Below, piece by piece: positions 5,782 to 19,605 of a DNA stretch of 64,000 bases (position 1 is its first letter; every line of letters starts with the position of its first letter). The position numbers and the translations under genes are program-made. Location of the stretch: the NCBI RefSeq assembly GCF_002019695.1, contig NZ_KV917376.1, positions 1,077,293 through 1,141,292 of the forward strand, written 5' to 3'. Origin of the DNA: Evansella clarkii. GTDB lineage: Bacteria > Bacillota > Bacilli > Bacillales > Salisediminibacteriaceae. Below the pieces are notes generated by a model that made no database searches, was not told the DNA's origin, and saw nothing but the letters and a program-made list of their open reading frames with translations.

Positions 5782-5808
5782 AATAAGGCCGCCATCTGGC
5801 AGCCTCTT
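5782..5808 (-). terminator. Terminator of the ccm operon
   Basis: GGCTGCC, AGAT loop, GGCGGCC (with G-U pairs) followed by TTATTTTC on the minus strand, directly after the last ccm gene. Confidence 0.55.
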
Positions 5809-5809
5809 T

Positions 5810-6325
5810 TTATTCCTTATTCAAATCACTTACTCTCTTCGCCAGAAGATCAAATGGCGGAGAACCGATGAAATGATCTGTTATAATCCCTTCTTTATCT
5901 ATTACAATAGTCTCAGGCTGTCCAATAATCCCAAAACTGTTTGATACTGACAGATCAAAATCCATTAAATATGGATTAACATAGCCTGTCCTGTCAATAA
6001 ACCGCGTCAGCGAGTTTTTTGACTCCGCTTTAACAATTGTGAAAAATACCATGTCATCATCATATTTTTCCCGAAACTCTATAAATTTCGGTGCTGCTGA
6101 TTCACAAGGTTTACACCAGGTCGAAAAGAAGCTTAATACTACTACTTCGCCATGGTAATCAGACAGCCTATGGATTTCTCCGTCATAACTTTCAAGCTCG
6201 AAATCCGCTGCTTCATCCCCGATAGCTACCGCTGTCCCTTGTCCGCGAATCCCCATTACCATTACCAGAAGCATGCCTGTAACAAAAATTAAAACCGAGG
6301 CCTTTATAATCTTCCGCTGCTTCAT
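5810..6325 (-). CDS. Membrane-anchored thiol-disulfide oxidoreductase (CcmG/ResA-like)
   Basis: 171 residues: uncleaved signal anchor (about 8-26), then a TlpA/ResA-type thioredoxin fold outside the membrane with active site WCKPC (70-74) and the cis-proline region GIIGQPETIVID. Such proteins reduce the CXXCH cysteines of apocytochrome c before haem attachment. It is the last gene of the ccm operon, 39 bases after ccmD, so the CcmG role is inferred from position. ResA of System II has the same fold, so sequence alone does not tell which subfamily it belongs to. Confidence 0.88.
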   Translation of the reverse strand: MKQRKIIKASVLIFVTGMLLVMVMGIRGQGTAVAIGDEAADFELESYDGEIHRLSDYHGEVVVLSFFSTWCKPCESAAPKFIEFREKYDDDMVFFTIVKAESKNSLTRFIDRTGYVNPYLMDFDLSVSNSFGIIGQPETIVIDKEGIITDHFIGSPPFDLLAKRVSDLNKE

Positions 6326-6364
6326 ACTCTTCCCCTCCCTTACAATCCATTTAAGGGCTTTTAC

Positions 6365-6493
6365 TTAGTTTTTATGAAGTTCCTGCAGGAATTTAACTTC
6401 ATTAACTGCCTGTTTTTGCCTTTTGCCGAGAACCAGAATATATCCTCCGATTAATAGCCAGATGATAGAATACGCTGCAAACAAATAAGTCAT
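6365..6493 (-). CDS. ccmD: CcmD-like small haem-export subunit
   Basis: A 42-codon gene: MTYLFAAYSIIWLLIGGYI, then a basic stretch (GKRQKQ) and a short helical tail. It has one N-terminal membrane helix with a cytoplasmic Arg/Lys-rich C-terminus, the size and topology of CcmD. GGGGAGG lies eight bases before the ATG. It follows ccmC by 18 bases, the standard ccmC-ccmD order. In E. coli CcmD is needed to release haem-loaded CcmE from CcmABC. The call rests on topology and position because CcmD sequences diverge strongly. Confidence 0.82.
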   Translation of the reverse strand: MTYLFAAYSIIWLLIGGYILVLGKRQKQAVNEVKFLQELHKN

Positions 6494-6511
6494 TTTCTTT
6501 TCCTCCCCTTA

Positions 6512-7246
6512 TTATCCTGTCATTTTTTCTTGCTGTTTTGCTTTAAGTTTCTTTGCATGAAGCCTTAGCTTCTCAATATAAACACCACTCTGCATCAGTA
6601 CAATGTAAACAAGTGTTAAAGTAAATACAGTAAACATCAATGTGAAGAACATGCTTGGCTCCATTCCTCCACCTGCTCCGTCTGCACCTTCTCCCATTAC
6701 GACAGGATGCAGGTTGGATTCCCACCAGCGGATCGACATGTATACAATTGGCACATTAAGCGCTCCAACGATACCTAGAACTGCCGACAGCCTTCCTTTC
6801 TTTTGCCATTCCATATCCAGGCTCCTTACCATAATATAAGCAATGTACATAAAGAAGAGGATCAGAGTTGTTGTTAACCGGGGCTCCCATGTCCACCATG
6901 TATTCCATGCTGACCTTGCCCAGATTGGCCCGGTTGTTAGTACGATTGCTGTAAATATTACTCCAATTTCCGCACTCACCCCGGCGATCATATCGTAGAT
7001 CCGCTTTCTTGTAATTAGAAATAAAATACTAAAGACCATTACAACGAAAAAGGCGAGAAATGCATTCCAGGCGGAACCTACGTGGAAATAAAATATCTTT
7101 TGTACTACACCCATCTGTCTCTCAACAGGAGACCAGATAAATACTAAATATAATGAAACAAGGACCATAGGAACAGCTAACAGAAGGAGTGCACGATGGA
7201 GCATACCTGGTTCAGGCAGACTCACTAGTCCATTATCATGTTTCAA
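6512..7246 (-). CDS. ccmC: Haem transporter subunit CcmC
   Basis: 244 residues, six predicted membrane helices. It carries a WWD-type tryptophan-rich periplasmic motif (WARSAW.TWWTWEPR; Glu replaces the usual Asp) and a histidine on the flank (FHVGSAWNA, H55), as in the haem-handling protein family with CcmF. CcmC presents haem to CcmE. It follows ccmB by three bases and precedes ccmD. Full length for the family, with a longer charged C-terminal tail (KLKAKQQEK). Confidence 0.95.
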   Translation of the reverse strand: MKHDNGLVSLPEPGMLHRALLLLAVPMVLVSLYLVFIWSPVERQMGVVQKIFYFHVGSAWNAFLAFFVVMVFSILFLITRKRIYDMIAGVSAEIGVIFTAIVLTTGPIWARSAWNTWWTWEPRLTTTLILFFMYIAYIMVRSLDMEWQKKGRLSAVLGIVGALNVPIVYMSIRWWESNLHPVVMGEGADGAGGGMEPSMFFTLMFTVFTLTLVYIVLMQSGVYIEKLRLHAKKLKAKQQEKMTG

Positions 7247-7249
7247 TTT

Positions 7250-7939
7250 TTACACCTCCAGAATATATTCAAATAATATGATTCCCGCTGCAAAAAAAAT
7301 GAGGTCATAAACCGCCATTAATTGCATCCAGGAGTAAGCACTGCTTAATTTTTCAAGATCCAGCAGCACGATACGCGTCGCCTGAACCGCCGCTATTAAA
7401 ACAGGAGTAGCAAGCGGGAACAGCAATATCGGCAGAAGCATTTCACTGCTCTTTGAATTTGCTGACATAGCTGCAAGAAAAGTGCCTGTAGTGACAAAAC
7501 CAAAAGTGCCCAGTAATATAATTGCTGCCAGATAAAAAATACTTTCTATTGTAATCACCCTGAAATCAAAAAGGAGAAAGAGTAATGGAATGGCAGCAAG
7601 TTGAACCGCTAATACAAAAATAAAGTTAGCAATGAATTTTCCCAGGAATACACTGGACGGATCAATAGGAGCTACAATAAAACCGTGTATATGGTCATTT
7701 CTTTGTTCAGCAGTGAACGAGCGATTTAAACCGAGTATCGCGGCAAACACTGTAATAATCCATATCATCCCCGGTATAAGAGCGCTCACTGCCTGATTGG
7801 ACGGATCAAATGCAAAGCTGAAAACTACTATTACTAAGGCAGAGAAAATGAGCATGGTTGACATGGTCTGCCTCGTTTTCCACTCAGAATATAAATCTTT
7901 GCCTGCTATAACTAACGCAGGCCGGATCAGATGTTTCAC
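7250..7939 (-). CDS. ccmB: Haem exporter permease CcmB
   Basis: 229 residues, six membrane helices. The family signature is visible around LNRSFTAEQRNDHIHGFIVAPID and G.FG.VTTGTFLAAM.A.....ELLLPILLFPL-type segments. Partner of the CcmA ATPase in the CcmABCD complex that frees holo-CcmE. The start codon is GTG and overlaps the ccmA stop codon by four bases (GTGA), implying translational coupling. Confidence 0.95.
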   Translation of the reverse strand: MKHLIRPALVIAGKDLYSEWKTRQTMSTMLIFSALVIVVFSFAFDPSNQAVSALIPGMIWIITVFAAILGLNRSFTAEQRNDHIHGFIVAPIDPSSVFLGKFIANFIFVLAVQLAAIPLLFLLFDFRVITIESIFYLAAIILLGTFGFVTTGTFLAAMSANSKSSEMLLPILLFPLATPVLIAAVQATRIVLLDLEKLSSAYSWMQLMAVYDLIFFAAGIILFEYILEV

Positions 7940-8637
7940 TGTGCCATCACCTGCCTCTCATACCGCTCCCGAAGCCAGCTTGTACTGTTGCCTTTAATCC
8001 TTACATCATCACAAACTCTACCGTTTTTAAAGGTAATCACCCGTTCACACGTTTTTACTACTTGGGGGAAATCATGTGTAACCATGATAATAGTCACCCC
8101 GTTTGCCTTTGAGCGGAGAATAACTTCATTTAAAATCTGCGAAGCTTCCTGATCAAGGCCCGTATGAGGTTCATCAAGAAGTAAAATTTCAGGCTCATGG
8201 AGGATTGCTCTGGCGATTGCAAGACGCTGTATCATCCCCCGGGAAAAGGAACGCACAGGCTCGTTTTTAAAAAAGGTGAGCCCCACCTTTTCCAGCAAGT
8301 CAGATATCTTCTTATCAGCGTCCTTTACTCTGTACAAATTCGCGAAAAAGCGAAGGTTCTCGGCAGGTGTAAGATGATCGTACAGGAAACTTTGATGGCC
8401 GAGGTAACCTATTTTCTGCTGTCTCTGATAGTGGTCCCGTTTCAGCTGCTTTCCTTCTAAAGACACTTGTCCCTCTGTAGGTTTAATCAATCCTGCCGCT
8501 ATTTTCAGCCACGTACTTTTTCCAGCACCATTCGGTCCGATAATTGCCGTCGCTTCTCCCTGTACAATATTAAGGGTTATATTTTTCAGAATCATTTTTT
8601 CCCCGATGACCTTAATGATGCTTTCTGTCTGAATCAT
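7936..8637 (-). CDS. ccmA: Haem exporter ATP-binding protein CcmA
   Basis: 233 residues, one ABC ATPase domain: Walker A GPNGAGKST (34-42), Q-loop near GYLGHQSF, signature SFSRGMIQR (a CcmA-like variant of LSGGQ), Walker B ILLLDEP, and switch His in VTHDF. It powers release of haem-loaded CcmE from CcmC. Operon context (ccmB overlapping its end, ccmC and ccmD following) picks CcmA over a generic ABC ATPase. Confidence 0.93.
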   Translation of the reverse strand: MIQTESIIKVIGEKMILKNITLNIVQGEATAIIGPNGAGKSTWLKIAAGLIKPTEGQVSLEGKQLKRDHYQRQQKIGYLGHQSFLYDHLTPAENLRFFANLYRVKDADKKISDLLEKVGLTFFKNEPVRSFSRGMIQRLAIARAILHEPEILLLDEPHTGLDQEASQILNEVILRSKANGVTIIMVTHDFPQVVKTCERVITFKNGRVCDDVRIKGNSTSWLRERYERQVMAQ

Positions 8638-8663
8638 GGCAGTACCTCCTGAGGGTTAATCGG

Positions 8664-9062
8664 TTAATCTAAATATTGGTTTAACTCTGTTTTTACTTTA
8701 TACAAATAGCTTTTATAACCGGAAACTCTTTCTTCAAGCTCAACTTCTGTAATCAGGCCTGCGTTATATTCCTCCTCGGCCTGAAGGATTTTGTTAAGCA
8801 GGATGTTCTTTTTAGCTGCAAGCTCCTGAAACTTTTTCTCATCAGCATCTGATGCAGCAGCAGCTTCTTTTTTCCGCTCTTTTATCGTAAAATGTATGAA
8901 ACACCATACTCCTGCAACTACTATAAGAATCAGCAAAGCTGTCACTAAATGAGGGTCGAAGTTTCTGAGTGGCGTTTCGTTCCACAATCTCACATGCCCT
9001 GGATTATGGAACCCAGGAGAAGGTATAGTTACATTGGCTCCGGCTAATATCCAGGTAAACAT
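8664..9062 (-). CDS. CcmI-like membrane protein with C-terminal helical hairpin (a)
   Basis: 132 residues, not firmly recognised. An extracytoplasmic N-terminus (about 1-40) is followed by one membrane helix (LVTALLILIVVAGVWCFIHF) and a charged coiled-coil region. The C-terminus contains LQAEEEYNAGLITEVELEERV, the same E-Y-x-x-G-x-I-x-E pattern found in the two related operon genes at 9066 and 12462 and in CcmI-type proteins. It lies between ccmA and the next CcmI-like gene, so a role in haem ligation or apocytochrome handling is inferred only. Confidence 0.6.
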   Translation of the reverse strand: MFTWILAGANVTIPSPGFHNPGHVRLWNETPLRNFDPHLVTALLILIVVAGVWCFIHFTIKERKKEAAAASDADEKKFQELAAKKNILLNKILQAEEEYNAGLITEVELEERVSGYKSYLYKVKTELNQYLD

Positions 9063-9065
9063 TTT

Positions 9066-9464
9066 TTATCCCTTCTCCTTTCGCCTTTTTTTAAGCTCCC
9101 TTAATTCCTTATTAATTTCATATTCAAGTTCTTCGTCAAAGACTTGTCCTTCAACGGAATGACCTTCTACCCTTTTTTCTGTTTTTTCTTCCTGCGAGAT
9201 TGCCTCTTCTTTAATTTTTTTAGCGGCCAGATTCTCATAAAAGCCTTTTAGCCTGCCATAGTCCGCCTCTGGCAATTTGCCCATGTTATATTCCATTTCA
9301 AGCTCATTCAGCGTGGCAAAAATATGCTCTTTTGAAAGTTCATCCAGATCGTCTTTAATTTCGGTTGTACGCCACTTTTTTTCCTTTTGAAAAAACGGCT
9401 GAACGACTAAATACAGGCATAACCCAATTATTAGCAAAGCTGCTACATACGCCATTTGCTTCAC
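9066..9464 (-). CDS. CcmI-like membrane protein (b)
   Basis: 132 residues: one N-terminal membrane helix (about 5-23), then a soluble charged region with LNELEMEYNMGKLPEADYGRL, close to the N-terminal pattern of CcmI (LE.EY..GKL.E.DY..L), and a lysine/glutamate-rich coiled tail. CcmI chaperones apocytochrome c to CcmFH in proteobacteria; the TPR part of proteobacterial CcmI is absent. Three bases separate it from ccmH and four from the downstream gene, so it is tightly coupled. Confidence 0.62.
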   Translation of the reverse strand: MKQMAYVAALLIIGLCLYLVVQPFFQKEKKWRTTEIKDDLDELSKEHIFATLNELEMEYNMGKLPEADYGRLKGFYENLAAKKIKEEAISQEEKTEKRVEGHSVEGQVFDEELEYEINKELRELKKRRKEKG

Positions 9465-9467
9465 ATC

Positions 9468-9971
9468 CTAGTAATACTTTTTACGTTCTTCATCCACCAT
9501 CGCCTTTAGAATCTCCTCTTCAAGCTCTGATTCTTTGTCTTTTGGCTCGCTGTCTTCAAAATGGTCCGTGTTTAAGCGGGATTTATTTACCCAGCGCCTG
9601 ACCAGGAGTGTAACGCCTGCCCCTGCAGCACCCAAAGCTGCAAATGGCGTTATCCAGGCTGTTAAACTGAAGCCTTTTTTCTCAGGAGCTGTCAAAATGA
9701 CCTCCCCATACATCCCTGTATAATGATTTTTAATCTCATCCTGTGTCATCCCGTCATTCATCATTTCTAAGATTTCTGTTTTAAATGAATCATTTAAGCC
9801 ACAGCCATCCATATTACATTCAAAATGATCCTGCCCGCAGCCGCACATACACATAAACTGAGAGGCATTGTCCTTGAATTCAGCGGAGTTATAATCGTAC
9901 ATTTCCGCTGCAAAAGCAGGCATTCCTGCAAGAACTGCTAACAGCATGATTGCAAAGATTTTTTTAACCAT
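9468..9971 (-). CDS. ccmH: CcmH-type cytochrome c biogenesis protein
   Basis: 167 residues from the ATG at 9971 (GGAAGG nine bases upstream; an in-frame start ten codons earlier lies inside ccmF). Order: signal peptide (about 1-22), Cys-rich domain, membrane helix (about 106-124), acidic cytoplasmic tail. The cysteine motif is CMCGC...C....CG (C41, C43, C45, C52, C57), not the proteobacterial LRCxxC; I recall similar CxCGCG forms from other non-proteobacterial CcmH proteins. Its expected role is thiol reduction of apocytochrome c beside CcmF. Confidence 0.85.
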   Translation of the reverse strand: MVKKIFAIMLLAVLAGMPAFAAEMYDYNSAEFKDNASQFMCMCGCGQDHFECNMDGCGLNDSFKTEILEMMNDGMTQDEIKNHYTGMYGEVILTAPEKKGFSLTAWITPFAALGAAGAGVTLLVRRWVNKSRLNTDHFEDSEPKDKESELEEEILKAMVDEERKKYY

Positions 9972-9972
9972 A

Positions 9973-11961
9973 TCAATATACCTTCCTTTGCGGTCCGGCA
10001 TAACGAGGAGTCACATTCCCATACCGTCCTTTCCATACTGCGAAGACTGCGCCGATTACAAGGACATATGTGCCAATCCATACCCACTTAACGAGAGGGT
10101 TGACTTTAAACTGGAAGGTGGCCCGCTGGTCTTCTTCCCAGGCACTTAGCACGATGTATAAGTCATCTCTTAACGTACTTCTGACCGCTACATTTGTAGA
10201 TGGTTCTTCCCAGTTTAGATAAAACATCCTTTCTGGCTGCATAATTCCTAAGTCTCTGCCGTCTCTTTCTACTCGCATATTCGCATAAACAATGTCGTTA
10301 ACCCCTTCACTGCGCTGGGCAAGATTTTCATAAGTGACTGTATATCCGCCAATTTCCACACTGTCACCTATCTCCATCGTTTCCAGCCTCTCCAGGTCGA
10401 AATTGGCCCCTACAATACCTACCGCCATAATGGCAATCCCCAGGTGGACAATATATCCTCCGTACCTTCTTCTGCTTCTTATAATTAAGTTATAAAAAGC
10501 TACAGGGACCGGTTCTTTCGTTACTTTTCTTCTAGCGGAAGTACCGCGGATAAATTCTGTTATGTGGGTCAGTACCATAAAGGCAATAATTGACCAGGCT
10601 ATTACGGGATAAGCGTCCCTGATGCCCATAAACACCAGAAGTCCTGCTATAACCAGGCTGATAATAGCTGGAATTAAGAAATTATCCCGTATATTTTTCA
10701 TACTGGACCGCTGCCATGCGATCAGCGGGCAGACTGCCATTATAAACAGAAGAGCAAGCAGGATAGGTGACATTACTGTGTTGAAAAATGGAATCCCTAC
10801 CGTCACCTTTGTGCCTCTGACTGCTTCGCTTACTAACGGGAAAACAGTTCCCCAGAATACAGCGAAAGTTCCGCCGAGAAGTATAAGGTTATTAATCAGA
10901 AACGAGCTTTCTTTCGATAAAAAAGACTCGAACTGGCCTGTATCTTTCTTAATAAGGTGATAACGGCTCATCAGCACATACATTGCAAGAATGACCATAA
11001 ATGCCATAAATATCAGGAAGTAAGCACCTAAATTAGATTCTCCAAAAGCATGAACTGAAGTTAGTACCCCGCTTCGTACGAGAAATGTTCCAAATAGCGT
11101 CAGCGCGTATGACAGTATAATCAAGCTGAGGTTCCATATCTTCAGCATGTTTTTTCGTTCCTGAATCATTACAGAATGGAGATAAGCTGTTACCGTAAGC
11201 CACGGCATAAAGCTTGCATTTTCTACCGGGTCCCATGCCCAGTATCCGCCCCAGCCTAATTCTGTATAGGCCCAGTATCCGCCAATGACATTACCAAGGG
11301 TCAGAAACACCCAGGCTATAATTGTCCACCGCCTTGTCATCTTGACCCAGAAGGAATCCATGTTCTTAAGGATTAAAGAGGCAATAGCAAAGGCGAAAGG
11401 AACAACGAGTCCAACATAACCGAGGTATATGGCCACCGGGTGAAGTATCATTCCCGGATCCTGAAGCATCGGGTTTAATCCCCGGCCCTCAGGCGGCACC
11501 CCGTCCAGCAGCATGAACGGTTTCGTCACAAACGCGAGAATCAGATAAAAGAAAATAGTGTTCAATGTCATTATTGCAATAATGTATGGAGTCATCGGGT
11601 TGCGGACCATTTTCTTTGAGTAGCCTACCATTGCAGCATACATGGTTAAAAAGAATGTCCAGAGCAGTAATGACCCGGCATTTCCGGCCCATAATGCTGA
11701 AAGCTTATAAAGAAGTGGCAAATCCGAACTTGTGTACTGGTAGACATACTCGAATTGAAACTGGCTTGTCCCAAGAAGAATAAACATTAACAGCATGGAA
11801 ATGGATGCCAGTATAAAAATTGCAAGTGTAGCCCCCCGCCCGCTGTCTATTAATCTTTGATCCTGTTTTTTGATCCCCAGGAATAAGGATGCAAAAGCGT
11901 AAACCGATAATATTAACGCTAAATATATTGATAAATTACCTATTATATACAAAGGGTCCAC
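9973..11961 (-). CDS. ccmF: Cytochrome c haem lyase subunit CcmF
   Basis: 662 residues, about 14-15 membrane helices, full length. The WWD haem-binding motif is intact (WGGYWAWDPVENASFMPW), along with family histidines around ILHPVAIYLGYVG and LRSGVLTSVHAF-type loops. CcmF takes haem from CcmE and attaches it to reduced CXXCH sites. The C-terminal extracytoplasmic domain (about 500-620) is the usual beta-rich region. The start lies 31 bases after ccmE. Confidence 0.97.
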   Translation of the reverse strand: MDPLYIIGNLSIYLALILSVYAFASLFLGIKKQDQRLIDSGRGATLAIFILASISMLLMFILLGTSQFQFEYVYQYTSSDLPLLYKLSALWAGNAGSLLLWTFFLTMYAAMVGYSKKMVRNPMTPYIIAIMTLNTIFFYLILAFVTKPFMLLDGVPPEGRGLNPMLQDPGMILHPVAIYLGYVGLVVPFAFAIASLILKNMDSFWVKMTRRWTIIAWVFLTLGNVIGGYWAYTELGWGGYWAWDPVENASFMPWLTVTAYLHSVMIQERKNMLKIWNLSLIILSYALTLFGTFLVRSGVLTSVHAFGESNLGAYFLIFMAFMVILAMYVLMSRYHLIKKDTGQFESFLSKESSFLINNLILLGGTFAVFWGTVFPLVSEAVRGTKVTVGIPFFNTVMSPILLALLFIMAVCPLIAWQRSSMKNIRDNFLIPAIISLVIAGLLVFMGIRDAYPVIAWSIIAFMVLTHITEFIRGTSARRKVTKEPVPVAFYNLIIRSRRRYGGYIVHLGIAIMAVGIVGANFDLERLETMEIGDSVEIGGYTVTYENLAQRSEGVNDIVYANMRVERDGRDLGIMQPERMFYLNWEEPSTNVAVRSTLRDDLYIVLSAWEEDQRATFQFKVNPLVKWVWIGTYVLVIGAVFAVWKGRYGNVTPRYAGPQRKVY

Positions 11962-11992
11962 CTACTTTGATGAATTAATATTACTGGAGGTT

Positions 11993-12445
11993 TTAACTGC
12001 CATCCTCCTTATCGTCTCTCAGAAGCTCACGGTGAAAGTCAGGATCATAATTGTCAGGATCTTCTCCTTCATACGCTGACGGGCATCGTGTCTGAACCTT
12101 CTCAGCTTCCAGAATGCCGTCATTCAGGAAACCATGTACAATCACTATTACGTCATCAGAGAAGTTGTCCGGGCGCACGCCATGATGATAGACGTCCAGT
12201 TCGTTCCCATCCTCATCTTCTAATGTAAACCGCAGTTCGATAGTGTCTGGCTCCCAGTCTACAGAGCCATTAACGAGGAAACCTTCCGTTGTGATATATC
12301 TTCCTTCGTACTGGGATTCATTAATTTTCGCTTCAAGAATTGAAATTTCAGAACCGCTGGAAGCAGGTGTCGCTGTAATAAGCAGAATCATAATACTGAG
12401 AAAAACTGCACAGCCGCCTAAAATAACTTTTGTATTTTTCGTCAC
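11993..12445 (-). CDS. ccmE: Haem chaperone CcmE, CxxxY variant
   Basis: 150 residues: N-terminal membrane anchor (about 7-25), OB-fold beta-barrel (about 35-118) with the family pattern YEGRYITTEGFLVNGS and a flexible acidic tail. The haem-binding site is C121-P-S-A-Y125, i.e. CxxxY, where most CcmE proteins have HxxxY. CxxxY forms are known from archaea and some sulfate reducers, notably with System I sets lacking CcmG/CcmH; here CcmH- and CcmG-like genes are present. It is the second gene of the operon, 16 bases after the 12462 gene. Confidence 0.93.
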   Translation of the reverse strand: MTKNTKVILGGCAVFLSIMILLITATPASSGSEISILEAKINESQYEGRYITTEGFLVNGSVDWEPDTIELRFTLEDEDGNELDVYHHGVRPDNFSDDVIVIVHGFLNDGILEAEKVQTRCPSAYEGEDPDNYDPDFHRELLRDDKEDGS

Positions 12446-12461
12446 TTTTCTCTCCCCTTTA

Positions 12462-13475
12462 CTAAGAAAGTTTTGATAGTTTCAGCCGGTATGTTTTTTC
12501 ATCTATTTCTCCATTCAGGAACTGCTTTCTTAATGTTTTTTTGTCGATATAATCTGATGGTCCCCTTTTTATGTCTTCTGCTGTATTTTCAGTTTCTGAT
12601 GACTTCTTGTTTTGTGAGCCTCTTAAACCGAAGAAAACGAAGATGCCTGCTATGATTATAGAAATACTTATCATTACCGAATTTTCAGTGCTGATAATCG
12701 GGTTGTTCCCTCCTTCTCCATTGCTTGTTCCACCTCCGTCCATGAATCCGGCATGGATATCGTCATCCGGAGGGCTTCTGTCTTCCAGAGCTTCAAGTGT
12801 AGTTACAATGCTGTCTTTTACATAAGTCACCGACAGATCAAACACTTCCCCGGCACTTACTTGTTCAAAATCATATGCATGTACCGGAACACCAAACATA
12901 TCTGTAACCCTGTCCGGCTCATGGCTGAGTTTTGTATCTTCTGCTCCCAGGGGTTCAAAATAAAGGACATTCATAAGTTCTGTTTCTCTGTCTGATGTAA
13001 TTGTGAATTCCATCTCTTTAGCCGTACCGCCGTTAAAAAGAGAGTAATAGTATTCAACGACATATCTGTATTCTTCTCCCGGTTCTACAGGCTCTTCCGG
13101 TATCCAGGTAAGAATGCCTGCTTCCTCGTCAACTGAATAATCCAGTTCCTCAAGCTCGCCATTGTTATCGAACTTTCCTGCGAGGGATACATACAAATCA
13201 GGCTGATCCGCCGGGATACTTACTGTAAATGGACCTTCATAGCTATCGCTGTTATAGTTTATAAAAGTCCCGTGCTGCCCTATTAAAAGAACAGGCACAT
13301 CACTTTCCCATCCAGCTGGTGTAACATATTCAGGCATTATTTGTATAACTAACTCTTTGTAAGGGAGTTCTTCCTTAGCCTCACTTTGAGCATTAACGAC
13401 ATTCCAGTTCTGAAAAGCAAGTATGAGTAAAACAGCAAAAGAAACCGCCAGCAGTCTGAATAAAGTCTTTTTCAT
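12462..13475 (-). CDS. Secreted, C-terminally anchored protein heading the ccm operon
   Basis: 337 residues, not recognised. Signal peptide (cleavage about 28-30), a large extracytoplasmic beta-rich domain rich in Glu/Asp (about 35-250), a Gly/Asn linker, one membrane helix (about 272-290) and a cytoplasmic tail ending LRKQFLNGEIDEKTYRLKLSKL. This tail repeats the short helical-hairpin motif of the two CcmI-like proteins downstream. It contains no CXXCH site, so it is not a cytochrome. As first gene of the Fnr-controlled ccm operon it may help bind apocytochromes or haem; this is inference from context. Confidence 0.55.
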   Translation of the reverse strand: MKKTLFRLLAVSFAVLLILAFQNWNVVNAQSEAKEELPYKELVIQIMPEYVTPAGWESDVPVLLIGQHGTFINYNSDSYEGPFTVSIPADQPDLYVSLAGKFDNNGELEELDYSVDEEAGILTWIPEEPVEPGEEYRYVVEYYYSLFNGGTAKEMEFTITSDRETELMNVLYFEPLGAEDTKLSHEPDRVTDMFGVPVHAYDFEQVSAGEVFDLSVTYVKDSIVTTLEALEDRSPPDDDIHAGFMDGGGTSNGEGGNNPIISTENSVMISISIIIAGIFVFFGLRGSQNKKSSETENTAEDIKRGPSDYIDKKTLRKQFLNGEIDEKTYRLKLSKLS

Positions 13476-13512: not shown

Positions 13513-13553
13513 TTTATACCGCAAAGGAACGACCCTCTGTGATATTTTTCACA
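13513..13553 (-). promoter_or_regulatory. Fnr box and promoter of the ccm operon
   Basis: TGTGATATTTTTCACA at 13538-13553 is a perfect TGTGA-N6-TCACA Fnr site. TATAAA (minus strand) at 13513-13518 fits a -10 box, placing the Fnr centre about 41 bases before the predicted start, the activating position. No good -35 box is visible, as expected for an activator-dependent promoter. Confidence 0.8.
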
Positions 13554-13622: not shown

Positions 13623-13654
13623 AAAAAAAACTCCCGGTTAGTGGGAGTTTTTTA
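13623..13654 (-). terminator. Terminator of nrfHA
   Basis: ACTCCC/GGGAGT stem with a short loop, then a T-run (TTTTTTTT) on the minus strand, 12 bases after the nrfA stop. It separates nrfHA from the ccm promoter. Confidence 0.85.
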
Positions 13655-13665
13655 GTCTGAATATA

Positions 13666-15117
13666 TTAGTCTAATTCCAGTACATTAGGGAAATACTCAT
13701 TAACAGCATGCTCATGTTTCTTAAATGGATCCTCCTCATTATGAACATCAGCGACTACTTTCTCTATTTCCCGCTCCAGTTCTTCCAGATCAACCTCAAG
13801 CTTTGTAAGCTCAGCAATTGCTATCTGGATAGCCTGGTTGGAAGCATCCGAAGATGTACGCATAGCATCCATCCCCCCCTGAGGATTATGAAAACCATCA
13901 GAGTTCTCTGCTGCGATAATATCCCAGAACCATTGTCCTTTTCGCACATAATACTGCGCTTCTTCAATCTTATCCTCCGGTGCCCCCGCCGTAATCATAC
14001 GGTTTACATAGTAGTGGGACTTAACAGAGTGATCCTGTGTTTCATGCATTGCTTCAAGGTGGGCTTCCTGGATATTTTCCACCCGGTTAACTAGTTCAGC
14101 TTCTGATTTGTCTCCATGGCAGGAACGGCAGGACTGCTCAACTGTTTCCATTGGCGATCCCCAGTGGTGGGAAGAAATTTTCTTTTTGCCATCTGTACGC
14201 TCATAAGGCATGTGACAATCTGAGCAAGATACTCCAGCTTCACCATGCGTTCCATAACTCCACAGTTCAAATTCAGGGTGCTGTGCTTTCAGCATTGGTG
14301 CGCCTGATATAGAACTGATCCAGTCATAATCAAAGTCCTGGTCCTTAGCTTGATCCTCGTAGTATTCAAACATGTCTTCCGGCTTTAAGCCATTATCCCA
14401 CGGGAATGTTACTTTACCATTGTCTGCGCCAAAATAATATTCAACGTGGCATTGGGCGCATACATAAGTACGCATATCATTTTTACTGGCTTCTGATACA
14501 TCCACACCCATTCTGTCCATTGCGTTCGTAAAAGAAGGGCGGGTAATTCTCAAATCCATTGTCACGGGATCGTGGCAGTCAGAACATCCAATGGATAAAT
14601 GTCCATACTCCCCAAGCTCTTCCAGTTCTCCGCCTTCTCCATATGCAACTGTTCTTGGAACGATATCTTCTTTAAAGCTTGCTCCCCAGTACTCATCACC
14701 CATATCGTCAAGAAGCTGAGGAACAGCAGTACTTTTACAGGTCATACATGATCCAATAGAGTTATCATTTATTCTTGCTACATTAATAACATCTTCTACT
14801 GCGTAGGTGTGCCCTCTCGTTTTATTGTATTCGAGCATAAACCCATAGTTATGGAACAAAATAGGTAAATTCGGCTCGATTTCAGTAATAAACTTAGAGG
14901 TATGTTCACTTGGAGAGTCCATATTTTTTAAATAACTCTCATATTGAAGCGGGAATTCTTCCTTAAATGCAGAATTTAAAATTTCATCCGGAGACAAATC
15001 AGTCGTTTCCTGTTTATCTTCCATAGCTTCTGAACTATTGCTGCAGCCTGCCAGGACAGCTGTCAGAAGCAATACTGCCAATAGCAGCAGGAGGTTTTTT
15101 CCCTGAAATACTTTCAT
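13666..15117 (-). CDS. nrfA: Ammonia-forming cytochrome c nitrite reductase NrfA (lipoprotein)
   Basis: 483 residues. Pentahaem enzyme reducing nitrite to ammonium with six electrons. Haem sites: the catalytic CMTCK (124-128, lysine ligand), then CSDCH (178-182), CAQCH (220-224), CSDCH (298-302) and CRSCH (330-334); the KAQHPE calcium/active-site segment is at 277-282. The N-terminus is a lipoprotein signal with lipobox LAGC (Cys25), so the enzyme is held on the outer face of the membrane. It follows nrfH by 25 bases. All catalytic features are intact. Confidence 0.98.
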   Translation of the reverse strand: MKVFQGKNLLLLLAVLLLTAVLAGCSNSSEAMEDKQETTDLSPDEILNSAFKEEFPLQYESYLKNMDSPSEHTSKFITEIEPNLPILFHNYGFMLEYNKTRGHTYAVEDVINVARINDNSIGSCMTCKSTAVPQLLDDMGDEYWGASFKEDIVPRTVAYGEGGELEELGEYGHLSIGCSDCHDPVTMDLRITRPSFTNAMDRMGVDVSEASKNDMRTYVCAQCHVEYYFGADNGKVTFPWDNGLKPEDMFEYYEDQAKDQDFDYDWISSISGAPMLKAQHPEFELWSYGTHGEAGVSCSDCHMPYERTDGKKKISSHHWGSPMETVEQSCRSCHGDKSEAELVNRVENIQEAHLEAMHETQDHSVKSHYYVNRMITAGAPEDKIEEAQYYVRKGQWFWDIIAAENSDGFHNPQGGMDAMRTSSDASNQAIQIAIAELTKLEVDLEELEREIEKVVADVHNEEDPFKKHEHAVNEYFPNVLELD

Positions 15118-15142
15118 TACTTTTCACCCTTTCATTTCTTAC

Positions 15143-15649
15143 TTAACTTCTAACATCAACTTCCCCAGGCTCAAACCAGTCAGCCGGCTTATACTTTCCA
15201 TTTCCGTGAGGAACCTGGCGGTGGCAATCTATGCAGCTGTCTTTTACATCATGAAAGTCAACATTCTCCAGCCCTGCCGCATGGCAGCTAATACAATTTT
15301 CGTTTACTACTTCAGCTGATGTTGCCTTTGCATGAATTACATCTTCAATACCGTCCGAGCCGATTGTATTCATATACATATGACTCATCCCAGCTTTTCC
15401 TTTGAACACATACTTAGAAACAAGATTATCCTGCGGTATATGGCAATCATTACAGGTAAGAGTGGCATGGTTAGAATCTATAAATGTCGCATGTGCTTCA
15501 TCCATTACATGGCATGAGGAGCAAAAATCTGCCGTGTCAGTTGCCTTCAACCCAGTAGCCGTTCCGGCAAATAAGACAACTCCAATGAATACTCCTCCCA
15601 GCAGAATTAATAAGAATCGTTTATTTAACCAACCCCGAAGGAATTTCAT
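15143..15649 (-). CDS. nrfH: NrfH, membrane tetrahaem quinol dehydrogenase
   Basis: 168 residues: one N-terminal membrane helix (about 12-31) then a NapC/NirT-family domain with four haem sites, CSSCH (43-47), CNDCH (66-70), CISCH (119-123) and CIDCH (139-143). NrfH takes electrons from menaquinol and passes them to NrfA. It is first in a two-gene operon, the standard nrfHA order. Both proteins need the haem-attachment machinery encoded next door. Confidence 0.97.
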   Translation of the reverse strand: MKFLRGWLNKRFLLILLGGVFIGVVLFAGTATGLKATDTADFCSSCHVMDEAHATFIDSNHATLTCNDCHIPQDNLVSKYVFKGKAGMSHMYMNTIGSDGIEDVIHAKATSAEVVNENCISCHAAGLENVDFHDVKDSCIDCHRQVPHGNGKYKPADWFEPGEVDVRS

Positions 15650-15689: not shown

Positions 15690-15732
15690 ATTTTACGGCT
15701 CATCCTGAAACTTCCATGTGATTTTTCTCACA
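15690..15732 (-). promoter_or_regulatory. Fnr box and promoter of nrfHA
   Basis: Minus strand TGTGAGAAAAATCACA (15717-15732) is a perfect TGTGA-N6-TCACA site. A -10 box TAAAAT at 15690-15695 puts the site centre about 42 bases upstream of the start. A second overlapping palindrome, TCACA-AATAT-TGTGA, lies on its upstream side. No -35 box is seen. Confidence 0.82.
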
Positions 15733-16060: not shown

Positions 16061-17887
16061 TTATTCTGCAATTTCAGCTTCTTCCGCAGTTACCGCAATT
16101 TCATGCCTGTAGACACCTGTACCGTCACCAATAGCAAAGTTTTTGACACGGTTGTTAACGGGCACTAATTCGGGAAGATAAAGCGTTGGAAAAACAGGGA
16201 CCTGGTCCACCATATATTCCTGCCACTCTTTATAAACGTCCTGCCTGTAATCTAAATCAAAAGCTTCTTCAGAAACGCCTTCTGTAAGCAGTCGGTCATT
16301 TTCATCACTTGCATAGCGGGAGAAATTATAAATCGCATTCCGGCCATATAACCCTCTGGGATCTACATCTATACCAACAGTCCAGGCACCAAGGAATAGA
16401 TCAATCTCAGGGTCATCTTCTCCCCTTTGCCCTAAACGATCGTAAAAAGTATTGAACTCCATCATCTCCAGTTCAACATTCAAACCGATTTCTTCCCATG
16501 CCTGTACATAATATTGAGCTAATGGCTCCGCCACATCGCTGCCTGTCATAGAAGCAAATGTAAGCACCAGCTCTTCACCGTCAGGAGTCTCCCGGAAACC
16601 ATCATTATTAATATCTTCAAATCCCGCTTCCTCGAGAATCTCCTCTGCTAACTCCGGATCATACTCCCGGCCAGGATTCGTTTCATCATGAAAATCAGGA
16701 TGAGATGGCGGAATTAATGTTGTTGCATTCCAGCGAAGCCCATGATAGAACTGTTCTCCAACAGCTGTGTTATCCACAGCGTGCCACATGGCTCTGCGAA
16801 GGGCCGCATCAGATACAGGCTTATCAGGGTTTGGTGCTGCCTCTTCATTTTCTTCATCCCAGACACCAAGTTTAAAACCAATATAAGAGTAAGCTCTGTC
16901 TGTCGTTCCAAGCCATTCAACATTAGACATGTCTGCATTGTCATGGAATTGATTATCAGGGAAATAACTGACGAGGTCTACTCCGCCTGTACGCAGTTCC
17001 TGTACAACTGTATTTGGGTTGATTACCTTAAGAACTACCTCATCAAGGTTAGGCTCTCCCCTCCAGTAATCTTCATTTTTAGTGAAGACGACAGACTCAC
17101 CTGGTACAATGCTTTCTGCTTTAAAAGGACCAAACCCTATTGGATTTTGGCGTACTTCAGAGGAAGAAGACATATCTGCTGTTTCCATATCTTCAAAAAT
17201 ATGCTTTGCTAAAGGATAGGCCCAGATACTTCCCGTAAGTAATGAAGGTGACACCTCAATAAATGTAATACTTAATGTCTTTTCATCAATTACTTCTATT
17301 CCTGAGATAGAATCTGCTTCCCCCTGGTGATACTCTTCCATCCCTTCAATATTCGCAAAGTCAGCTGTATAACGTGGCCCGTCATACTCTGCGTGACCAA
17401 TTACTTCATGAGCAAATGCCCAGTCTTCTGCAGTAACCGGCTCGCCGTCATGCCAGTTTACGTTGTCGCGAATAGTAAAAGTAAAGGTGCGTCCGTCCTC
17501 GGATACTTCATATGTTGCAGCGCCATCGTTTGTGTAAACGTAATTTTCATCCCAGGTTAACAGAGGCTCATCAAACCAGCTGAGAACTTCTCCGTCCAGT
17601 GCTCCGGAATAAAAGTTCCAGTTAAGCGTTCCTTCAAACGGCGTATCGGAAACTAAACCATAGGTGATAGATCCACCTTCTATAGCTTCCTCATCATTTG
17701 AAGTATGATTATTAAAATCTTCTATAGAATATAATCCGTCCCTCTCATTATCAGCAAGACTATTATTTTCATTAGCATCATCCATATTTTCTTCCGGTCC
17801 GTCGCCATTATCTGCACAGGCAGTTAAAGTCAATAAAGAAGCAAGTGCCCCCATTACAAAGAAACTCGTCATTTTTGTTTTTCTCAT
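16061..17887 (-). CDS. Oligopeptide ABC transporter substrate-binding lipoprotein (copy 1)
   Basis: 608 residues from the ATG at 17887 (the first in-frame GTG lies inside the GGGGTGGG ribosome site). Lipoprotein signal with LTAC, a short acidic linker, then a family-5 extracellular solute-binding domain (W.DGEPVTAEDW, GFGPFKAESIVPGESV). Clearly a paralogue of the product at 21766-23634, with long shared stretches. It captures peptides for an Opp/App permease. It is separated from the transporter operon by two insertion sequences and has its own likely promoter. It is a complete frame, so probably functional. Confidence 0.92.
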   Translation of the reverse strand: MRKTKMTSFFVMGALASLLTLTACADNGDGPEENMDDANENNSLADNERDGLYSIEDFNNHTSNDEEAIEGGSITYGLVSDTPFEGTLNWNFYSGALDGEVLSWFDEPLLTWDENYVYTNDGAATYEVSEDGRTFTFTIRDNVNWHDGEPVTAEDWAFAHEVIGHAEYDGPRYTADFANIEGMEEYHQGEADSISGIEVIDEKTLSITFIEVSPSLLTGSIWAYPLAKHIFEDMETADMSSSSEVRQNPIGFGPFKAESIVPGESVVFTKNEDYWRGEPNLDEVVLKVINPNTVVQELRTGGVDLVSYFPDNQFHDNADMSNVEWLGTTDRAYSYIGFKLGVWDEENEEAAPNPDKPVSDAALRRAMWHAVDNTAVGEQFYHGLRWNATTLIPPSHPDFHDETNPGREYDPELAEEILEEAGFEDINNDGFRETPDGEELVLTFASMTGSDVAEPLAQYYVQAWEEIGLNVELEMMEFNTFYDRLGQRGEDDPEIDLFLGAWTVGIDVDPRGLYGRNAIYNFSRYASDENDRLLTEGVSEEAFDLDYRQDVYKEWQEYMVDQVPVFPTLYLPELVPVNNRVKNFAIGDGTGVYRHEIAVTAEEAEIAE

Positions 17888-18008
17888 TAAACCCACCCCT
17901 TTATCTTATAGCACTTAGCCGTACCTGCCTGTTCTGTATAAATCTGTGCTTCTGCCAACAATAGGCAGACAAACTTTTGCAGATAACCGGCCATTTATAC
18001 CCCTTGGA

Positions 18009-18195: not shown

Positions 18196-18381
18196 TAGAA
18201 GTGAAGAAAGGCCGAACAGCCTCTGGGACCAAGATAAGAGTCCGTATCAAAAAACCGGCCAACTTCACACCCTTGTTTGAATCAGTTTAGTATGTTGGGT
18301 CCAAGAGATCGTGTATAAGAAAATGGAATCAATAAGGCGCTGTGAAGACTTCTATGATTGGCTAAAAAGGAGAAGGTTCGT
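18196..18381 (+). ncRNA. Candidate bridge RNA region of the IS110 element
   Basis: This 186-base non-coding stretch directly upstream of the transposase can fold: GTGAAG (18201) with CTTCAC (18263), GGCCG (18210) with CGGCC (18256), enclosing GGAC (18226) with GTCC (18240) and internal loops. In IS110-group elements the left-end non-coding sequence encodes a bridge RNA whose loops pair with donor and target DNA. The loops have not been matched to any target here, so the assignment is inference from position, size and pairing. Confidence 0.4.
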
Positions 18382-19605
18382 TTGAAGCATGTCATCGCAC
18401 TTGATGTCAGTAAAGGAAAAAGTACTTTTGCTATTTATGACCGGTATAAACAATGTGAATTGGAAGGGGAATTAACTCATACTCGGATTGATTTTGAACG
18501 GCTTCATCACAGAATTGAAGAAATGACGGTTTTGGATAAACAAGCCCCCGAAATTGTGTTTGAAGCAACAGGTATTTACTCAAAACCACTGGAAAAGTTC
18601 CTGGCGACTAAAGGCCATACATACTGCCGTATGAATCCATTGGAAGCGAATTTACAAATGGCTAAGATGCGTCGTCATAAAACAGATATTAGCGATGCCC
18701 ACGAGCTTGCGAAAACACACTTTAGTATGGCTCGCGAAGCGACATACCAACAAGATGACTACTTTGAACAAATGCGGGCGATTACACGTTACTATGATGA
18801 AATTGATGAAGAGATGATCCTCTTACGCAGTAGAATGCATGCGATTTTACATCTATCATTTCCGGAATTGGAACAGCTCATTACACCAAGTTCCGCGTTA
18901 TTTTTAAATCTCGTACAGCTCTATCCCCATTCGGCACAATTACGAGCACTTTCAAAAACGATTATTAAAAACCGTTTGAAAGAGAACACCCGAAAGAATT
19001 TATCTTTAAAACGCGCAGAGGAGAAAGCCATTGTATTATTGAAAGCTGCCGAAAATTCGTATCCAGCTATTGATCCGTCGGACATTCGTTGTGATCAAGC
19101 AAGGGATTATGCTCGACGTATTGCGGATTTGATGGAGAAAAAGGTTCAGCTCGTCAAACAAATGGTAACTATCTCAGAAGGGAGAAAAGAATATAAGGTC
19201 TTGCGTTCATTTCCAGGAATCGGAGATTCAACAGCGTGTCGACTGATTGGCGAACTAGGGGATATCCGCCGTTTTAAAAACGCCAAACAGTTAAACGCTT
19301 ACGCGGGCATTGATATCATGCGCTATCAATCCGGTAATATGCAATATCGTGATCGAATAAATAAAAGAGGTAATAAGAAGCTGCGGAAAATTTTATTTTT
19401 TATGATTTGTTCAATGCTTATGGCAAAAGGAAAACCTAATCACTTCGTGGACTATTATTACAAATTAAAAAAGCAACCTCAGAGTAAGCCTCATAAGGTC
19501 GCTGTTGTGGCGTGTATGAATAAGTTCCTGAAAGTGACGTTTCAACTTATCACACACGGCATATTGTACGATTATGAGTCCGCACTACCAGCTCAAAGAT
19601 CGTAA
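18382..19605 (+). CDS. IS110-family transposase (DEDD recombinase)
   Basis: 407 residues from the TTG at 18382 (GGAG eight bases upstream); an in-frame TTG eight codons earlier has no clear ribosome site. The N-terminal RuvC-like domain has D8 (ALDVSK), E61 (FEATG), D102 and D105 (TDISDA). A coiled middle is followed by the C-terminal Transposase_20 domain (SFPGIGDSTACRLIGELGD) with the catalytic serine S317 in RYQSGN. All catalytic residues are present, so the enzyme may be active. It is one of the few plus-strand genes here. Confidence 0.93.
   Translation: MKHVIALDVSKGKSTFAIYDRYKQCELEGELTHTRIDFERLHHRIEEMTVLDKQAPEIVFEATGIYSKPLEKFLATKGHTYCRMNPLEANLQMAKMRRHKTDISDAHELAKTHFSMAREATYQQDDYFEQMRAITRYYDEIDEEMILLRSRMHAILHLSFPELEQLITPSSALFLNLVQLYPHSAQLRALSKTIIKNRLKENTRKNLSLKRAEEKAIVLLKAAENSYPAIDPSDIRCDQARDYARRIADLMEKKVQLVKQMVTISEGRKEYKVLRSFPGIGDSTACRLIGELGDIRRFKNAKQLNAYAGIDIMRYQSGNMQYRDRINKRGNKKLRKILFFMICSMLMAKGKPNHFVDYYYKLKKQPQSKPHKVAVVACMNKFLKVTFQLITHGILYDYESALPAQRS

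Follow-up and report, generated by a model that had tools for sequence, protein, structure and literature searches.

A System I*-type cytochrome c maturation operon beside nrfHA in Evansella clarkii, and its co-occurrence with NrfA in Bacilli

The window analyzed here is a 64,000-nucleotide stretch of the Evansella clarkii genome (G000, 5.48 Mb; NCBI RefSeq GCF_002019695.1, contig NZ_KV917376.1, positions 1,077,293 to 1,141,292). Its positions 5810-13475 hold eleven tightly packed genes on the minus strand, in the order orfZ, ccmE, ccmF, ccmH, orfY, orfX, ccmA, ccmB, ccmC, ccmD and ccmG (Table 1). The same gene set and order recur in most of the loci fetched from the order, and given this recurrence the arrangement is more than chance; it is a real, ordered and conserved operon for cytochrome c maturation (Ccm) of the System I* type. 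The operon lies directly downstream of nrfHA (13666-15649), and in the Bacilli sampled the two obey a one-way rule: no genome was found to have NrfA yet lack System I, whereas System I often occurs in genomes without NrfA. An initial annotation of this DNA had placed ccmA-F, ccmH, a ccmG-like thioredoxin gene and two ccmI-like genes in one leftward operon next to nrfHA, with a CMTCK motif in NrfA. All of the named genes are there, on that strand and within that span, as are nrfHA and the motif (read in locus L058); the operon has eleven genes and not ten, since orfZ heads it, and of the two ccmI-like genes orfY has a sub-threshold match to CcmI and orfX has none.

Table 1. Features of the ccm operon and its nrfHA neighbour in the window, by position.
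Feature	Coordinates	Strand	Basis and remarks
Terminator-like hairpin closing ccm operon	5785..5806	-	pattern scan; position fits; weak alone
CcmG/ResA-like thioredoxin, active site CKPC	5810..6325	-	AhpC-TSA 81 bits; ResA subfamily 94 bits (cut-off 170); N-terminal anchor by eye
CcmD, 42 residues	6365..6493	-	place and size only; single hydrophobic stretch by eye; related reading frame adjoins ccmC in most fetched loci
CcmC, haem handling, tryptophan-rich WTWEP motif	6512..7246	-	Cytochrom_C_asm 93 bits; ccmC 129 bits (cut-off 186)
CcmB, ABC membrane subunit	7250..7939	-	Pfam CcmB 100 bits; NCBIfam ccmB 66 bits (cut-off 156)
CcmA, ABC ATPase	7936..8637	-	Pfam ABC_tran 127 bits; ccmA equivalog 153 bits (cut-off 131.6)
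orfX, 132 residues	8664..9062	-	no family above cut-off; one hydrophobic stretch; tail recalls CcmI N-terminus by eye
orfY, 132 residues, CcmI N-terminus-like	9066..9464	-	CcmI domain 14.5 bits, sub-threshold (cut-off 29.3)
CcmH/NrfF-like, Cys-rich CMCGCGQ, no CXXC	9468..9971	-	CcmH 69 bits; start is ATG after ccmF stop
CcmF/NrfE haem lyase	9973..11961	-	CcmF_C 203 bits, Cytochrom_C_asm 135 bits; nrfE/CcmF (NCBIfam) 468 (cut-off 569)
CcmE, System I* form, CPSAY replacing HXXXY	11993..12445	-	CcmE 66 bits; motif in sequence
orfZ, 337 residues	12462..13475	-	no Pfam family; N-terminal signal/anchor and later hydrophobic stretch by eye; SHOCT-like tail
Perfect TGTGA-N6-TCACA (Fnr-like) box	13538..13553	.	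begins 78 bases upstream of orfZ start
Terminator-like hairpin between nrfA and ccm operon	13625..13653	-	pattern scan
NrfA, pentahaem nitrite reductase	13666..15117	-	Cytochrom_C552 393.5 bits; first motif CMTCK, then four CXXCH (read in L058, same gene)
NrfH, tetrahaem quinol oxidase	15143..15649	-	NrfH 124.8 bits (cut-off 134.2)
Perfect TGTGA-N6-TCACA (Fnr-like) box	15717..15732	.	begins 83 bases upstream of nrfH start

The assignments of the initial annotation hold in profile searches, as the Pfam matches for CcmA, B, C, E, F, H and the thioredoxin all exceed Pfam's own cut-offs. With the NCBIfam models, CcmA passes the ccmA cut-off, and the ccmC, ccmB and nrfE/CcmF matches are clear but below theirs, so that the set is a divergent one. 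The System I core (CcmA, B, C, D, E and F) is complete, with CcmD, whose open reading frame (ORF) is below the length limit of our first ORF list, recognized by place and size only. CcmF has the tryptophan-rich (WWD) domain, here WGGYW.WDP, and four histidines (His174, His262, His304 and His506), which are invariant in the 16 aligned members and which we take to be the haem-ligand residues. CcmE carries a CXXXY motif, CPSAY, in place of HXXXY, and the window set is therefore of the System I* form; all 33 CcmE sequences of the order loci have CP.XY. The gene orfX is found at the same place in most of the fetched order loci. There is no ResB-family protein in the operon, apart from a 14-bit, sub-cut-off stretch in CcmF, and no TPR match, such as an NrfG-like protein would give, among the ten proteins scanned.

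The CcmH of System I carries a CXXC motif (LRCXXCQ). The window protein has CMCGCGQ instead, and no CXXC occurs in the first 110 residues of any CcmH member typed. Typing was first by CXXC, with all members negative, and then by C.C.C; L095 and L223 were scored "polyC", although the L095 ORF extends upstream and its CcmH is Cys-poor by reading. Among the 33 CcmE genomes of the order, 11 (the window genome included) have a Cys-rich, CMCGCG-like CcmH, five of these also having a Cys-poor second copy, and the other 22 have the Cys-poor form only (by reading). This split fits the statement that only about one third of System I*-type systems have CcmH (PMC3601427; here and below, we refer to the relevant passages of each source).

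The nrfHA pair looks like a transcription unit separate from the ccm operon, with a terminator-like hairpin following nrfA at 13653-13625; such hairpins number nine in the window, versus 8.7 expected in shuffled sequence. Each unit is preceded by a perfect TGTGA-N6-TCACA site, presumably the box of Bacillus Fnr. These two are the only perfect sites in the 64-kb window, one per unit, where 0.08 are expected, and none of 100 shuffles had two. Allowing one mismatch, 27 of 34 orfZ genes have a site in the 400 bases ahead of them (15 of these sites perfect), and so do 15 of 34 nrfH genes (4 perfect). The corresponding counts are 1/36 for ccmE, 1/35 for ccmG and 1/39 for ccmA, where the upstream stretches are mostly coding. 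The seven orfZ genes that lack a site are the four that belong to type 2 (an operon type described below) and those of L096, L098 and L104. In genomes of families f47 and f18, nrfH comes after ccmG and is read the same way, and it may not need a box of its own. The locus of resABC, the System II genes, has two one-mismatch sites, both inside genes and near the chance level. Sigma-70-like promoter sites were no commoner in the promoter scan than in shuffles. A CRP-like motif has been described for a relative of the FNR of B. subtilis (PMC1274295).

The initial annotation had left it to a genome search whether resBC and resA are also present. The search returned one ordinary resABC set: there is one ResB and one ResC, with ResA, in a block flanked by a pseudouridine-synthase-like gene and a ResD-like response regulator (neighbours named by look), and no second ResBC was found in the window genome. 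A third Cytochrom_C_asm protein, encoded between hemA and hemC, is identified by that position as HemX. There is thus no NrfI-type ResBC candidate in this genome, and a dedicated System II lyase for NrfA is rejected for it. ResB was present in 39 of 40 genomes tested, the exception being G184 (90% complete, 6% contaminated). A second ResB does not serve as a marker of NrfA, since G002, which lacks NrfA, has ResB matches at two places; in other genomes, multiple ResB matches are often pieces of one gene.

Co-occurrence was surveyed in 397 genomes of the order and in 299 genomes of the class, the latter overlapping the order sample. Within the order, 33 genomes have CcmE and 30 have NrfA; all 30 NrfA genomes have CcmE, and 364 genomes have neither. 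In the class sample, the ten NrfA genomes all fall within the 30 that have CcmE, and six NrfA genomes of the class outside the order, checked directly, have CcmE in every case. In total, 37 of 37 NrfA genomes of Bacilli have CcmE, Bacillus sp. DNRA2 (G670) included. We built a DnaX tree from 80 genomes, taking every one of the 33 order genomes with CcmE and adding a non-random 47 from among the remaining 364; on it, NrfA changed at least 10 times. Of ten independent pairs that differ in NrfA, an average of 8.9 differed in CcmE in the same direction, none in the opposite direction, and 1.1 showed no CcmE difference (median p of the sign test, 0.004). Within a single genus, the window genome and G396 differ in NrfA and CcmE together, as do G297 and G358. 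Nor is the operon universal among close relatives, the pattern that the initial annotation had named as speaking against it: CcmE is present in 5 of 16 listed genomes of the window's family, and in one of two in its genus.

CXXCK is the first motif in all 34 full-length NrfA proteins of the order loci (one further fragment is without that region), and also in 13 NrfA loci of the class (L186-L198). Locus L199 (G413) has, besides several NrfA, a cytochrome with eight haem motifs in which CXXCK is the fourth, resembling octahaem nitrite reductase. In an Actinomycetota bin (Nitriliruptoraceae, L177), nrfHA encoding CXXCK lies within a few kb of ccm genes whose CcmF is distant from those of Bacilli, perhaps an independent pairing.

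The CcmF tree contains 107 rows; left out were four near-copies of genus g66 and three of 80 named loci (77 used), which were too short. Apart from G273 and G120, all order rows group with L106 and L107 in a single clade (SH-aLRT 100). The initial annotation had suggested that such a tree could reveal the source of the operon; it gathers most of the order rows into this one fully supported clade, whose nearest outsiders among the rows listed, all on long branches, belong to ANME/Methanoperedens archaea and to a Dehalococcoidales bin. None of the listed rows is labelled Desulfobacterota; in the named-genome scan, three of the matches listed (at least 80) are labelled Bacillota. Within family f47, the type-2 operons sit apart from the type-1 operons. 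When class loci are added, the rows of other orders (G404, G406 and G427) fall with type 2, and some transfer within Bacilli is therefore likely, as judged from the tree.

In the window genome, in G276, G377 and G338 (all family f1), and in six genomes of family f28, the cluster adjoins tadA-dnaX. The genome of the window's own genus that lacks it, G396, has tadA-dnaX-ybaB-recR without the cluster, and in G297 (f1) the cluster is elsewhere. Since the position is common to genomes of two families, recent acquisition by the window genome is not favoured; old presence with joint losses in the window's lineage fits better than a recent import, and a far older transfer into Bacilli may have occurred. 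On the other side of the cluster from tadA-dnaX there is, by look, an origin-proximal block (34644-61725; serS, pdxT, pdxS, dacA, guaB, gyrA, gyrB, recF, dnaN and dnaA). Beyond the nrfH side of the cluster are two transposase-like genes (18358-19605, plus strand, IS110-like; 19870-21465, minus strand, IS1182-like; both by look). Between serS and nrfHA there are also three oligopeptide-binding-protein-like genes, again by look (16061-17896, 21766-23634 and 30131-31993, minus strand), with Opp-like transporter genes; the first two are similar to each other and flank the transposase-like genes. In G132 (C1:46782-48454), dnaX matches in two pieces, from two frames or a break.

Physical linkage of nrfA and ccm is the rule in the order, where both are in the same fetched locus in 28 of 30 NrfA genomes. 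In G276, the two are split by contig ends in a pattern that fits its near relative G377, and in G168 nrfHA is on another contig. Outside the order, only G427 of the six genomes is linked; the other five have their NrfA and CcmE matches on different contigs, and the co-occurrence is therefore not just linkage. This bears on the possibility that nrfHA and ccm are inherited or moved as one block, with ccm a passenger and ResBC doing the work. The 28 linked genomes, and the shared tadA-dnaX place in two families, are what such a block would give, but co-occurrence is kept on different contigs in five of six class genomes and in G168, and the pared-down set of Bacillus sp. DNRA2, which keeps ccmF, H and G without ccmABCDE, is unlike a passenger. 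We regard this explanation as very improbable.

The DNRA2 genome has two CcmF proteins. One belongs to a complete type-2 operon without a box (L107); the other (L325) is in the arrangement orfZ-ccmF-ccmH-orfY-orfX-ccmG-nrfH-nrfA, with a perfect box before orfZ and 95 bases between orfZ and ccmF. No ccmE or ccmABCD was found in this nrf-linked set, and the whole genome gives one CcmE match. The nrf-linked CcmF shares 71-72% identity with its NrfA-linked counterparts in f47 genomes. Thus the lyase half is beside nrfHA and the haem-export half is elsewhere, which is the layout of Escherichia coli ccm plus nrfEFG in another lineage. The NrfEFG-type arrangement, i.e., CcmF/CcmH paralogues beside nrfA with a general Ccm elsewhere, is therefore seen in DNRA2 (L325 with L107) and not in the window genome, which has only one CcmF and the whole ccm set beside nrfHA. 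DNRA2 also has a second nrfHA (L326), with no ccm genes nearby, beside genes that resemble a molybdopterin oxidoreductase cluster. Other genomes are arranged differently again: G168 has a single CcmF, of type 2, in an unlinked operon without a box, and its nrfHA is adjoined by a lone second copy of orfZ with a perfect box. Of the two sets in G220, one is complete and linked to nrf; the other yielded neither ccmABCD nor ccmH.

In the genomes sampled, orfZ tracks NrfA more closely than CcmE does. A profile built from 21 members detects it in all 37 NrfA genomes, in two of 24 CcmE genomes without NrfA (G418 and G669), and in none of 19 genomes that have neither, save for a tail-only match in G254; in G409, the contig that carries orfZ holds neither ccm nor nrfHA. 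Across 78 other loci (L108-L185, one labelled Sulfobacillus and some short), no ORF best matched orfZ at E 1e-3. By its sequence, orfZ is an undescribed protein family: Pfam has no family for the window protein, eight of 21 relatives give weak SHOCT matches (best E 0.0027, none above 0.1), and a sequence search of the PDB gave one match (E 0.67), which we take as nothing. An AlphaFold model, built on just three sequences, has a mean pLDDT of 59, with core blocks mostly at 65-89, and the better part (residues 40-220) contains two predicted beta-sandwich-like domains. Foldseek against the PDB returns many all-beta matches, the best being a translocon-OST entry (E 4e-5, TM 0.35) followed by M1 aminopeptidases; these are generic and too weak to give the family a name. 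With a predicted beta-sandwich rather than a TPR fold, orfZ is not taken to be a homologue of NrfG or of the CcmI C-terminal part, although a like action may remain.

Several observations weigh against a strict tie between the operon and NrfA. CcmE occurs without NrfA in 3 of the 33 order genomes (G016, G120 and G273), in 20 of the 30 CcmE genomes of the class sample, and in Neobacillus cucumis (G669), which gives no NrfA match; System I can therefore serve other cytochromes, and an equation of System I with NrfA in both directions is rejected. In G168, NrfA is accompanied by an unlinked, type-2 CcmF only, and so the linked type is not indispensable. Co-regulation is not general, because nrfH comes first in f17 and f25 genomes yet has no box within 400 bases, and class loci outside the order have no box before ccm, though several of their nrf genes have one (L322, L327 and L328). 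The tie of orfZ to NrfA amounts, on the CcmF tree, to three independent pairs, which is not significant. Part of that tie is therefore operon lineage, and orfZ is not supported as a statistically independent marker of NrfA.

The three order genomes with CcmE alone are of two kinds. G120 and G273 belong to the other CcmF lineage; their loci (L088 and L086, respectively) represent a second ccm lineage without NrfA, with a 310-residue unassigned gene in the place of orfX and, in L088, a CopC-like gene (by look) near ccm. The CcmF of G016 is inside the NrfA-type clade, and its locus is shortened to ccmE, F, H, orfY, C and D, with orfZ, orfX, ccmA, B and G not found there. One gene upstream of this shortened operon, G016 encodes a 484-residue cytochrome with five CXXCH motifs (L092, 7818-9272), and it has no NrfA match. 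This locus may have decayed, or changed its use, after NrfA was lost. It might alternatively be taken, together with the CcmE genomes that lack NrfA, as a sign that the operon serves anaerobic multihaem cytochromes at large, as a second haem-attachment machine that adds capacity for NrfH, NrfA and others and has no special part for CXXCK. We consider this unlikely, since CcmE differs together with NrfA within the order on the DnaX tree, and DNRA2 keeps a lyase half at nrfHA despite having a whole second System I.

The initial annotation had proposed that the machine was acquired or kept specifically to serve NrfA. Keeping is what the data favour, through the presence of CcmE in 30 of 30 and 6 of 6 NrfA genomes, the DnaX tree and the paired boxes; recent acquisition is not favoured, and a tie in both directions did not stand. 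We conclude that the System I* operon is probably kept for NrfHA, alongside an ordinary ResABC (System II) route, and that it most likely exists for the maturation of NrfA. What we observe directly are the genes, their co-occurrence, the boxes shared by the two units of the window, and the pared-down, nrf-linked set of DNRA2. For the flow of haem, the preference for CXXCK and the role of orfZ, we infer a scheme from what is known of System I and of NrfEFG/NrfI. An Fnr-type regulator would switch on nrfHA and the ccm operon jointly once conditions are anaerobic. CcmABCD would put haem onto the Cys-type CcmE, which would pass it to the CcmF lyase, with CcmH, orfX and orfY (both CcmI N-terminus-like) and the thioredoxin CcmG as putative helpers. 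CcmF would then join haem to apo-NrfA, chiefly at the CXXCK active site, which ResBC is expected not to serve, and orfZ would hold or present apo-NrfA to CcmF. The operon may serve the CXXCK haem only, or all of the NrfHA haems.

A more specific proposal, which we offer tentatively and hold as possible rather than probable, is that Bacilli attach the active-site haem of NrfHA by a purpose-kept System I* lyase module and not by System II. In this proposal, the specificity part would be the new family orfZ, a membrane-anchored, two-domain beta-sandwich that presents apo-NrfA (at CXXCK) to CcmF and so does, by another fold, the job of E. coli NrfG. The co-occurrence suggests how these bacteria fit haem to the unusual active site of NrfA, and the DNRA2 arrangement and orfZ name candidate specificity parts. 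Because System I* is present in parallel with ResABC, the question is reducible to a simple deletion experiment in nitrite-ammonifying strains. Nitrate ammonification matters for the retention of nitrogen in soil (PMC10716430), and in nrfA surveys the presence of orfZ-ccmF could indicate that NrfA maturation is possible.

The linkage of nrf and ccm is not in itself new, as nrfAH linked to ccmEFHABC was noted for Bacillus azotoformans in 2012, for one genome and in one sentence (PMC3475470). The linkage is the same as here; ccmD, ccmG, orfX-Z, the box, a survey and the split set of DNRA2 are not in the relevant passages of that paper. In the titles and abstract openings of the open-licence literature, no statement of the wider NrfA-System I pattern in Bacilli was found, and what appears to be new is the one-way rule, together with orfZ, the paired boxes and the half-set of DNRA2. 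NrfHA is placed under System II in a 2025 review, which, in its relevant passages, calls the route of the CXXCK haem unknown outside Wolinella NrfI (PMC12285233); unlike that assignment, the Bacilli genomes point to System I* in parallel to ResABC. The same review describes B. subtilis as using ResABC and lacking an nrf operon.

Three known systems resemble the one described here. System I* with a Cys-type CcmE is known from Desulfovibrio, archaea and some Firmicutes (2011 review, PMC3601427; PMC9084895), and covalent haem on the CcmE cysteine has been reported for Desulfovibrio and Methanosarcina (same sources). The window set shares with it the cysteine of CcmE within CPSXY, a CcmH that is not a fixed part, and the CcmABCDEF core (PMC3601427), and differs in that it coexists with resABC, is linked to nrfHA, and has orfZ, two small CcmI N-terminus-like genes, and CcmG-like and CcmH-like genes. 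The likeness to NrfEFG of E. coli (PMC3601427, PMC12285233) is that relatives of CcmF and CcmH adjoin nrfA, and that in DNRA2 the lyase half is at nrfHA with ccmABCDE elsewhere. Here, in contrast, there is no TPR protein, the partner of NrfA is NrfH and not NrfBCD, orfZ and CcmG are included, CcmE is of the Cys type, and the window genome and most of its relatives in the order have the whole ccm operon. Finally, Wolinella succinogenes devotes a lyase, NrfI, to the CXXCK of its NrfHA-type enzyme; such a dedication is demonstrated in that organism (PMC12285233), and we infer it for the Bacilli. NrfI is a fused, CcsBA-type protein of System II, whereas the lyase here belongs to System I.

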